NCBI GenBank assembly: GCA_027487775.1
Contig: JAIYCY010000024.1
Span: 62,001 to 126,000, forward strand
Length of the DNA: 64,000 bases
Direction: 5' to 3'
Origin: Planctomycetaceae bacterium
Lineage (GTDB): Bacteria; Planctomycetota; Phycisphaerae; Tepidisphaerales; Tepidisphaeraceae
The notes beneath the pieces were generated by a model. It was not told where the DNA came from. It saw only the letters and a program-made list of their open reading frames with translations, and ran no database searches. This document shows, in pieces, positions 12,962 through 28,030 of this stretch. Numbering within the stretch: position 1 is the stretch's first letter; every line of letters starts with the position of its first letter. A program made the translations under genes and the position numbers.

Positions 12962-13026
12962 CTCCATGGTTGGGGTACCCGGGATTTGATTGGCGGTCGT
13001 TTCGACTGATGACTTTCCGCCCTGAT

Positions 13027-13152
13027 GCCGATGTATGTCGCATTGTCGCTCACGTAGAGCGTACGGGCGCCGATGCAAGGCGTATTGGCGCTGATCGATG
13101 CCGTGCTGTCGCCGGCGTAAGGCGCGCTGGCGCCGATGTTTGCCGGGCAGCA
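13027..13152. repeat. Degenerate tandem array, six 21-bp units
   Basis: Six contiguous units begin at 13027, 13048, 13069, 13090, 13111 and 13132. The consensus starts GCCGATG, has GGCGT in the middle and ends CTGGC. There is no spacer between units. The period is exactly 21 bp, so every frame reads as a 7-residue repeat, for example AD-x-CR-x-x on the plus strand and x-IGA-x-TP on the minus strand. Neither frame has a convincing start or ribosome site. The array is therefore scored as DNA structure, not as a gene. Confidence 0.75.
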
Positions 13153-13376
13153 GGACGCAGAGGGCGCGAGGAACACCTTCTGGCGATGGCAGCACCGCTC
13201 TCGCCGAGACGCGTGTCCGACGTTGGACGGATGCACCGATCATCTTCCCGCTCGTGCGAGAGTCAGAATGACAACGTTCGACGCGGGGGTCGGGCTCAAG
13301 ACGGCTCGTCTGCACCTGCCGACATGTCGCGGCGGAGATGTCTGGCGCGCTCGCCTGCCGGGCCGTCGCGATGACG

Positions 13377-24015: not shown

Positions 24016-26112
24016 ATGTCCGATCCGAGCCGATCCCCAAAACTCCCACTCGACGCCCCCGTCACCAGCATCACCGGCGTCGGCGCAGCCCGTGCCGCCC
24101 GTCTCGCCGCACTCGGACTCGCAACCCTTCGCGACCTCCTCGAGTACTACCCACGCAGATACCAGTTCGAAAGCCACGAAACCGGCATCGACGCGCTCCA
24201 GCCAGACCAAATCCACACCGTCCGCGGAGAAATCGTCGCCGCTCAATACACCTCCGGCTCGTCACGCGGACGATTCGAAGCCACGCTCGACGACGGACGC
24301 GACCGACTCAGCCTCACCTGGTTCAACGGCACCTGGCTCCGCGGGCGACTCACACCCGGCATGAACGTCCGCGTTCGCGGAAAAGTCGGATTCTTCCGAA
24401 ACATGCCCCAAATGGTCAACCCACACTGGCAGGCCATCGATCCCCAAAACGACGACGCCAACGCCCCCGTCGAATCCAAACTCCGCCCCATCTACCCCGC
24501 CACCTCTGACCTCTCCAGCGCCGTCCTCGAACGCACCATCACCTCCGCACTCGATCACGTCGATCCTCCACTCGAATGGTTCGATCCCGATCTCCTCACC
24601 TCGCGCAGGCTCATGTCACGCGCCGACGCCTCTGTCCAAATCCACAACCCACGCAATCACGCCTCCGCCTACGCAGCCCGCCGCCGACTCGTCTATGACG
24701 AACTCATGCTCCTCCAGGTCGGACTCCAACTCGCCCGCCAACAACGCACCGATCGCCTCAGCGCCCCGGTCGTCCGCTGCGATCGACTCCTCGACGAACG
24801 CATCCGCAACCGTTTCCCCTTCCCGCTCACCCAGGCCCAGGAGCGCGCCTGCTATCAACTCGTCCGCGACATGCAATCCGGACTCTCGATGAACCGACTC
24901 CTCCAAGGCGACGTCGGCAGCGGAAAAACCGTCGTCGCCCTCTACGCCATGCTCGTCTGCGTCGCCAACAAACTGCAATCCGTCATCCTCGCACCCACCG
25001 AAGTCCTCGCCGAACAACATCACCTCTCCCTCTCGCGCTTCCTCGCCGGCTCGGGCGTCCGCGTCGGGCTCTTCACCCAACGCTCCAAAAAAGCCCAAAA
25101 AACCATCCGCGACGATCTCGCCTCCGGCGCCATCCACCTCGCCGTCGGTACCCAGGCGCTCATCCAGCCCGATATCGACTTCGCCAACCTCGGACTCGTC
25201 GTCATCGACGAACAACACCGCTTCGGCGTCCGTCAACGCGCCTTCCTCAAGGCCAAAGGCCTCAGCCCCCACTACCTCGTCATGACCGCCACGCCCATCC
25301 CACGCACACTCGCACTCAGCTACTTCGCCGACTTCGACGTCAGCACCATCGACGAACTCCCGCCCGGCCGCCAGCCCATCCATACCGAATGGCTCCGCAA
25401 ACCCCAGGCCGACCTCGCATGGAATCGCGTCATCCAACAAGCCAAACTCGGACAACAAGCCTACATCGTCGTCCCACGCATCGACGGCAACGGCTTCGAC
25501 GAAGACACCGCCAGCCTCGAAGAACGCTACGAATCCCTCCGCACCGGCCCCCTAAAATCGCTCCGACTCGGCATGCTCCACGGACGCATGAAACCCGACC
25601 AAAAAGCCGCCGTCATGGAACAATTCCGCTCACACCAACTCGACGTCCTCTGCGCCACCACCGTCATCGAAGTCGGCGTCGATGTCCCCAACGCCACCGT
25701 CATGGTCATCGAGTCCGCCGAACAATTCGGACTCTCACAACTCCACCAACTCCGCGGACGCGTCGGACGTGGCACACACCAAAGCTACTGCCTCCTCATC
25801 TCCGACGCTCCCACCGAAGAAAGCGTCCTCAGACTCGACGCCATGACCCGCACCGGCGACGGCTTCGAACTCGCCGAAGAAGACCTCCGACAACGCGGAC
25901 CCGGCGACTTCTTCGGCACTCGTCAATCCGGACTCCCCGACCTCAAAGTCGCAGACCTCTCCCAGGAACTCGACCTCCTCAAACAAGCCCGTGAAGACGC
26001 ACAGAGACTTCTCACCGACGATCCGACCCTGTCGCTTCCCGGCCATCGCCTGCTGCACCATGAATTGCTCCGCCGATTCGGCCGAGCCCTCGGCCTCGGC
26101 GGCGTCGGATAA
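24016..26112 (+). CDS. recG: ATP-dependent DNA helicase RecG
   Basis: The 698-residue protein has the normal RecG length. The wedge/OB region opens with PVTSITGVGAARAARLAALG and YYPRRYQFE, and contains WFNGTWLRG. The helicase core has QGDVGSGKTVVAL (motif I), LAPTEVLAEQH (Ia), VVIDEQHRFGVRQR (II, DEQH), VMTATPIPRTLALSYF (III), GRMKPDQKAAVMEQFR, TTVIEVGVDVPNATVMVIE and QLRGRVGRGTHQSYC (VI). It remodels stalled forks and Holliday junctions. The open frame extends far upstream into the antisense of the MCE gene, but the ATG at 24016 begins the family homology. It is followed by the 797-bp repeat-bearing intergenic region. Confidence 0.96.
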   Translation: MSDPSRSPKLPLDAPVTSITGVGAARAARLAALGLATLRDLLEYYPRRYQFESHETGIDALQPDQIHTVRGEIVAAQYTSGSSRGRFEATLDDGRDRLSLTWFNGTWLRGRLTPGMNVRVRGKVGFFRNMPQMVNPHWQAIDPQNDDANAPVESKLRPIYPATSDLSSAVLERTITSALDHVDPPLEWFDPDLLTSRRLMSRADASVQIHNPRNHASAYAARRRLVYDELMLLQVGLQLARQQRTDRLSAPVVRCDRLLDERIRNRFPFPLTQAQERACYQLVRDMQSGLSMNRLLQGDVGSGKTVVALYAMLVCVANKLQSVILAPTEVLAEQHHLSLSRFLAGSGVRVGLFTQRSKKAQKTIRDDLASGAIHLAVGTQALIQPDIDFANLGLVVIDEQHRFGVRQRAFLKAKGLSPHYLVMTATPIPRTLALSYFADFDVSTIDELPPGRQPIHTEWLRKPQADLAWNRVIQQAKLGQQAYIVVPRIDGNGFDEDTASLEERYESLRTGPLKSLRLGMLHGRMKPDQKAAVMEQFRSHQLDVLCATTVIEVGVDVPNATVMVIESAEQFGLSQLHQLRGRVGRGTHQSYCLLISDAPTEESVLRLDAMTRTGDGFELAEEDLRQRGPGDFFGTRQSGLPDLKVADLSQELDLLKQAREDAQRLLTDDPTLSLPGHRLLHHELLRRFGRALGLGGVG

Positions 26113-26265: not shown

Positions 26266-26347
26266 GTGCGTAGGGTCCGGTGTACTCACCGGACCGTCGT
26301 TGCGTCGCTGGCGAAATGGTCCGGTGAATACACCGGACCCTACCTGC
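26266..26347 (+). repeat. 82-bp hairpin element, copy 1
   Basis: This copy contains a near-complete inverted repeat. GTAGGGTCCGGTGTA (26270-26284) pairs perfectly with 26329-26343. After a 2x2 mismatch, CACCGGACC (26287-26295) pairs with GGTCCGGTG (26318-26326), leaving a 22-nt loop. It is identical to copy 2 except at one base, in the 2-nt mismatch. It has the look of a non-autonomous mobile or REP-like element, but no transposase is present. Confidence 0.85.
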
Positions 26348-26478
26348 CCTCAAACTTGAGTCACGAACCCCCCATCCAAGAGCCGCTCACATCCCCCGAT
26401 AAAAACGGCACGCCGACAACTGAAGGGGCCACGGCTTTCGCCGGAGACGAATCGGCAACTCAGATTTCGAAGTTACCA

Positions 26479-26616
26479 CCGACCGAAGTCGGCGCGAAAT
26501 CGATCGAAGCCAGCTCAAGATCGATCGAAGTCGACGTGCTTTCGATCGAAAGCGCGGCATTTTCGATCGAATACGACACGAAAACGATCGAAAGCGAGTT
26601 GGAACCGATCGAAACC
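26479..26616. repeat. 21-bp array of phased TCGATCGA palindromes
   Basis: Palindromic TCGATCGA cores start at 26500, 26521, 26542 and 26563. One-base variants follow at 26584 (ACGATCGA) and 26605 (CCGATCGA), and a weaker unit sits at 26479 (CCGACCGA). The spacing is exactly 21 bp, about two helical turns, while the 13 bp between cores vary. In frame each unit reads x-SIE-xxx, but no start or ribosome site supports a protein. Confidence 0.85.
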
Positions 26617-26618
26617 GA

Positions 26619-26700
26619 GTGCGTAGGGTCCGGTGTACGCACCGGACCGTCGTTGCGTCGCTGGCGAAATGGTCCGGTGAATACACCGGACCCTACCTGC
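26619..26700 (+). repeat. 82-bp hairpin element, copy 2
   Basis: This is a direct repeat of the element at 26266-26347, matching 81 of 82 bases. The inverted-repeat arms are unchanged. The pair brackets 271 bp that carry the phased 21-bp array. No target-site duplication was seen beside either copy. Confidence 0.85.

Positions 26701-26909: not shown

Positions 26910-28030
<1,121 letters not shown>

Follow-up and report, generated by a model that had tools for sequence, protein, structure and literature searches.

Iterons and other phased binding-site arrays are built of repeats placed at about two helical turns. A different kind of repeat, the REP, is recognized by a GTAG at the outer foot, a stem of 5-13 bp, a loop of 2-20 nt and partners located 20-100 bp apart (PMC3733652). 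GTAG REPs can be arranged head to head as a dimer (PMC3733652), the structure known as a REPIN (PMC3116915), and they have been reported previously in Planctomycetes (PMC3116915; PMC3733652). The BrickBuilt MITE of Porphyromonas gingivalis is an intergenic, non-coding minisatellite of 23-nt units, with a leader and a tail, that varies in its number of units and is dispersed in the genome (PMC4596501). Finally, HIP1 (GCGATCGC) of cyanobacteria is a palindrome centred on CGATCG and very abundant in the genome (PMC4390886).

The window analysed here is a stretch of 64,000 nucleotides (G000:C19:62001-126000, G000 being the genome). It contains a block of repeats at 26266-26700, the coordinates already given by an initial annotation, that lies between recG (ending at 26112) and the gene of an htrA/degP-like protease (ATG at 26910), which is followed by tatC. 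The block starts with a first 82-bp hairpin element (26266..26347, + strand), continues with a 131-bp leader (26348..26478) and a 21-bp array (26479..26618), both without strand, and ends with a second copy of the 82-mer (26619..26700, + strand) that directly abuts the array. As originally described, the two copies are in direct orientation and identical at 81 of 82 positions. Neither a promoter nor a terminator consensus was detected, and the recG-htrA adjacency was not found in the family. No clear bias emerged in the orientation of flanking genes. The block is probably a mosaic in which intergenic repeats of two independent kinds, REPINs and a 21-bp minisatellite, lie side by side. Our favoured explanation, with a probability of about 0.6, is that the minisatellites are hairpin-prone and that both kinds of repeat are selfish or neutral; a host function would be unnecessary to account for the block.

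The 82-bp element and the Y1 genes

Folded as ssDNA, the two 82-mers reach -32.6 and -31.4 kcal/mol (z of -7.8 and -7.0, respectively), values that none of 200 shuffles equalled, with an outer stem of 15 bp and an inner one of roughly 10 bp, which bears out the hairpins initially proposed. Each copy is a doublet composed of GTAG (26270-26273 in the first copy and 26623-26626 in the second), a REP hairpin with a 9-bp stem and a 4-nt loop (26274-26295 and 26627-26648), a 22-bp spacer (26296-26317 and 26649-26670), the inverted REP (26318-26339 and 26671-26692) and CTAC (26340-26343 and 26693-26696), and the REP reads GTAG-GGTCCGGTG-loop-CACCGGACC in both orientations. The tag, the stem, the loop and the distance between partners all agree with those described for REPs (PMC3733652), and the two inverted REPs jointly form a hairpin. 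As a head-to-head dimer of GTAG-tagged REPs, the 82-mer is a REPIN, and its family is an ordinary one, known in kind.

A whole-genome search retrieved about 16 such doublets, of which 13 are >=97% identical and three 81-89%, together with single halves, so that the 82-mer is indeed a dispersed hairpin element. The doublets occupy separate loci with different flanks, mostly extragenic by a rough check only, and most of them are found without any array. The family shares with the REPINs described before (PMC3116915; PMC3733652) the outer GTAG, the inverted REPs with their 9-bp stems, 4-nt loops and 22-bp spacer, the single long hairpin and the dispersed intergenic copies. Unlike them, it has few copies, a quarter of which abut 21-bp arrays, and no Y1 gene flanked by its REP was found. 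None of 25 other family genomes had the strict doublet pattern; the sole match in a relative (G012) was discarded, as it misses the second hairpin and has no doublet structure. We also observed that REPINs mark the joints between mosaic flanks, with left sides that differ between loci: what follows the C29 REPIN on the right recurs at C16, and the right flank of the C13 REPIN recurs at C31.

A search for a Y1 transposase encoded elsewhere had been suggested, and there are in fact two Y1_Tnp (IS200-like) ORFs, one in C34 and another in C3 that is cut by the contig end. The former resembles NCBIfam REP_Tyr_transpos with a score below the cut-off, and the latter has a REPIN about 1 kb upstream. 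Both are bordered by GGGACAGCCCC repeats, a repeat different from the REP of the 82-mer, and for this reason mobilization of the REPINs by these two ORFs is something that we can only infer. The REPINs would spread as non-autonomous elements, probably with a Y1 (RAYT-type) transposase acting in trans, but no REPIN-flanked Y1 gene was found in the assembly (94.7% complete, 34 contigs). In the ORF of C34 (148-838 of the examined stretch) a 20-bp tandem duplication near the start (TTTAACTCACGCAAAGACTA twice) shifts the frame.

The CGATCG array and its relatives in the genome

The array of the window begins with a degenerate unit at 26479, followed by six units in which CGATCG starts at 26501, 26522, 26543, 26564, 26585 and 26606, in exact 21-bp steps just as the initial annotation had it, while the linkers between cores vary. 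The full 8-mer TCGATCGA is present in four of these units and the other two have ACGATCGA and CCGATCGA. The match at lag 21 is 0.66, against <=0.21 at lags 18-20 and 22-24. When CGATCG was searched in the genome with a free spacing of 15-30 bp, the regular clusters were mostly 21/21 bp, with one 18/18, and the rest were irregular singletons.

The leader was found only once more, at G000:C29:184564, in a copy that differs from that of the window by a few substitutions and a 1-bp indel and is followed by about 20 units in the same order as in the window; a REPIN in the same orientation directly abuts the array on its right. The window array is devoid of internal units and of everything past unit 9 of the C29 order, which is where its REPIN joins. 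Within the 22 units of both paralogues conservation reaches 96% in the best block of seven columns (P=0.0045 when compared with columns in random order). To the left of the C29 leader there is neither a REPIN nor a recognisable remnant, the best REP-remnant match being no better than shuffles. The window block is probably a shortened copy of a leader-array-REPIN segment like that of C29, with an extra REPIN on the left. A third CGATCG array, at 52.4 kb of C4, is also abutted by a REPIN in the same orientation as in the window; it has another leader, whose similarity to that of the window was no better than shuffles, and no left REPIN was found there. The fourth, at 172.5 kb of C29, has about 23 units and no REPIN nearby. 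In this last region (C29:172.4-172.9 kb) the consensus of the 23 strict 21-bp units shifts along the array, from TCGGCC... to ACGATCG... and then to TCAAGAGG....

Taking all the REPINs together, 4 of 16 have a lag-21 array at their 5' side (null of 1.9% per site, P 1.8e-4), against 0 of 16 for arrays of lags 18-20 or 22-24. The independent cases of this association are three, since the window and C29 are paralogous. It had been proposed that the block could move or be excised as a unit by means of its flanking hairpins, and this is not supported, because the C29 paralogue carries its REPIN on the right only. A fuller form of the same idea would be that REPIN, leader, array and second REPIN make up one composite mobile element with REPIN ends, moved as ssDNA by a Y1 transposase much as IS200/IS605 elements with a passenger. 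The two near-identical REPINs in direct orientation around the block would fit, as would the leader, array and right REPIN being together again at C29 and the REPIN abutting the C4 array. However, the same ends do not appear at every copy of the cargo, the left REPIN or its remnant being missing at C29 and C4, and besides most REPINs are free of arrays and there are arrays without REPINs. We consider such a composite decidedly unlikely.

When the arrays were folded as RNA or ssDNA, z was -3.9 for that of the window (RNA) but only about -0.5 to -2 for the C29 paralogue and for C4, and therefore we do not take the fold as a consistent structure; a search of RNA families gave sub-threshold matches only, to eukaryotic, archaeal and other RNA models. 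The 21-bp period would be accounted for if the array encoded a heptad (coiled-coil-like) repeat peptide, 21 being divisible by 3 and a 149-aa frame spanning the window block. However, 2-4 of the 11 substitutions between the window and C29 are synonymous in any frame, which amounts to no coding bias, the indel of the leader is of a single base, and the frame of the C29 copy that matches the 149-aa one meets stops. All six frames are closed in a 23-unit array of the same class, and neither Pfam nor NCBIfam gave a match. On these grounds the peptide was rejected as extremely improbable, and the 21-bp arrays are treated here as non-coding.

The 21-bp arrays as a class

We compared lags 14-30 in two independent genome samples, which comprise 137 kb of DNA called intergenic by our own simple codon-usage gene caller, after masking the known loci. 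At lag 21, arrays occupy 1.6% and 2.1% of this intergenic DNA, against <=0.6% for the other lags from 14 to 30, and arrays within coding DNA favour lag 18. The 16 arrays in these 137 kb would extrapolate to about 75 for the whole genome. In 54 kb of intergenic DNA from four relatives of the family there were none, when the density seen in this genome predicts about 6.3 (P about 0.002, a Poisson estimate). A second array of this type is found in the window itself (13002..13169, intergenic, no strand), with an unrelated unit and no adjoining REPIN; its match at lag 21 is 0.59, against <=0.31 at lags 18-20 and 22-24, and its unit was negative in the dyad test. Unit sequence differs between loci. 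With array borders set by eye, here as in the analysis of phase, dyad-symmetric units were significant in 10 of 25 arrays (against column permutation; Fisher 3e-13, or, leaving out the four CGATCG arrays, roughly 1e-9 when calculated by hand from the P values). Such units include CGTCGAG-TCC-CTCGACG, CCAGTTT-GCG-AAACTGG and TCGGCCC-GCTG-GGGCCGA. Covariation of the arms at the dyad axis was weak and only suggestive (Fisher 0.03, rank sum P 0.13). Arrays of 22-23 units hold their phase with zero indels though neighbouring units are ca. 35% mismatched, which hints at a constraint. The class as a whole has a fixed period, no coding constraint, dyad symmetry in many of its arrays and adjacency to REPINs. 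The window array is probably a member of this class, an unusual and lineage-specific one of non-coding, exact-21-bp units, with a sequence particular to each locus and often dyad-symmetric. One spacer (G000:C18:310.8-311.6 kb) packs four or more different 21-bp arrays into less than 1 kb.

The initial annotation read the window array as a set of phased sites for a protein. The 21-bp spacing is real and extends to the whole class, but in a 464-kb sample of the genome CGATCG ranks first in frequency among all hexamers and is not over-represented, being at 0.91 of the 5-mer expectation, and other arrays have other sequences at the same period; because of this high background the case for sequence-specific binding is weak. 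Along similar lines, HIP1 (PMC4390886) shares with this genome a very abundant CGATCG, but here the hexamer stays below the 5-mer expectation and the feature is an array and not dispersed sites. A functional platform, on which a host protein would contact a single DNA face at dyad motifs spaced by two helical turns (for nucleoid, segregation or regulatory purposes), would agree with the exact phase kept without indels across up to 23 units, with a core that is better conserved than the linkers in the window and C29, with the dyad symmetry of many arrays and with the recurrence of core and spacing in a different Phycisphaerae family. On the other hand, conservation of a motif is confined to within some arrays, as with CGATCG in that of the window and C29, and the unit sequence varies from one array to another, the arrays were not found in the sampled relatives, and the copy number is specific to each locus. 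The distance of about two helical turns is like that of iterons and other phased binding-site arrays; unlike these, there is no nearby replication gene, no motif common to the class and no known candidate for the binder. We regard the platform as unlikely.

What would set the unit length

In the explanation that we favour, selfish or neutral minisatellites and REPINs, palindromic or hairpin-prone units would gain and lose copies by slippage or unequal exchange, a step that we propose because the paralogues have about 7 and about 20 units, and template switching would maintain the palindromes. REPINs would insert at the edges of the arrays, since REPIN transposition would use hairpin-forming ssDNA. 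This mechanism explains the symmetry and the adjacency, but not a single unit length of two helical turns, as slippage by itself predicts no single length, and the phase kept by the 22-23-unit arrays, the weak covariation of the arms and the failure to find a REPIN-flanked Y1 gene also speak against the favoured explanation. It is possible, and we put it forward tentatively, that dozens of unrelated intergenic loci in this lineage owe their dyad-symmetric arrays of exact 21-bp units to an unrecognised process of formation or maintenance, with REPINs settling preferentially beside them. In such units the sequence would be free while length and symmetry would be fixed, and therefore the ruler would be structural rather than sequence-specific, e.g., a DNA-binding or repair enzyme. 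Minisatellites edged by REPINs, together with arrays of fixed length irrespective of sequence, would provide a natural test of what sets the unit length of bacterial minisatellites (helical phasing, hairpin formation and enzyme footprint being the candidates), and also of the landing sites of hairpin transposons.

Among 397 genomes of the taxonomic class, four phased CGATCG sites were found in only three, G000, G030 and G394, and in the last the array is a nearly uniform repeat. A further 16 genomes of this class have single TCGATCGA pairs spaced by 21 bp, which are isolated and probably due to chance. In G030 (the Phycisphaerae MAG AS06rmzACSIP_467, from another family) about 40 matches, some of them within one copy, trace dispersed elements of about 430-540 bp, in which imperfect TIRs (TAAATTATATTAATAAACGCC ... 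GGCGATTAATGATACTTATC) enclose a leader, an array of 7-10 units such as TCGATCGACAAATTGAAAAAG and a tail, so that the TCGATCGA array at 21 bp is internal to the element; many copies lie at contig ends. Eight near-full copies could be aligned and have sharp ends and imperfect TIRs. This element has the same layout as BrickBuilt (PMC4596501), TIRs included, although we do not claim homology and its unit is of 21 bp and not 23. The arrays of G000 differ further from BrickBuilt, having no shared TIRs, unit sequences that change with the locus and, in some cases, an abutting REPIN; the window/C29 block itself is represented by two paralogues only, without TIRs in common.

In other phyla, CGATCG arrays detected in a genome scan were discarded as relatives, as most of them consist of uniform tandem repeats whose sequence is unrelated. 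The cyanobacterium Phormidesmis priestleyi and the Planctomycetota Dive96_bin4.162 have degenerate arrays of CGATCG with 21-bp spacing, like that of the window. A 21-bp array of the AS06rmzACSIP_467 kind also occurs on a contig, probably mis-binned, that was assigned to Candidatus Methanofastidiosia archaeon AS22ysBPME_302.
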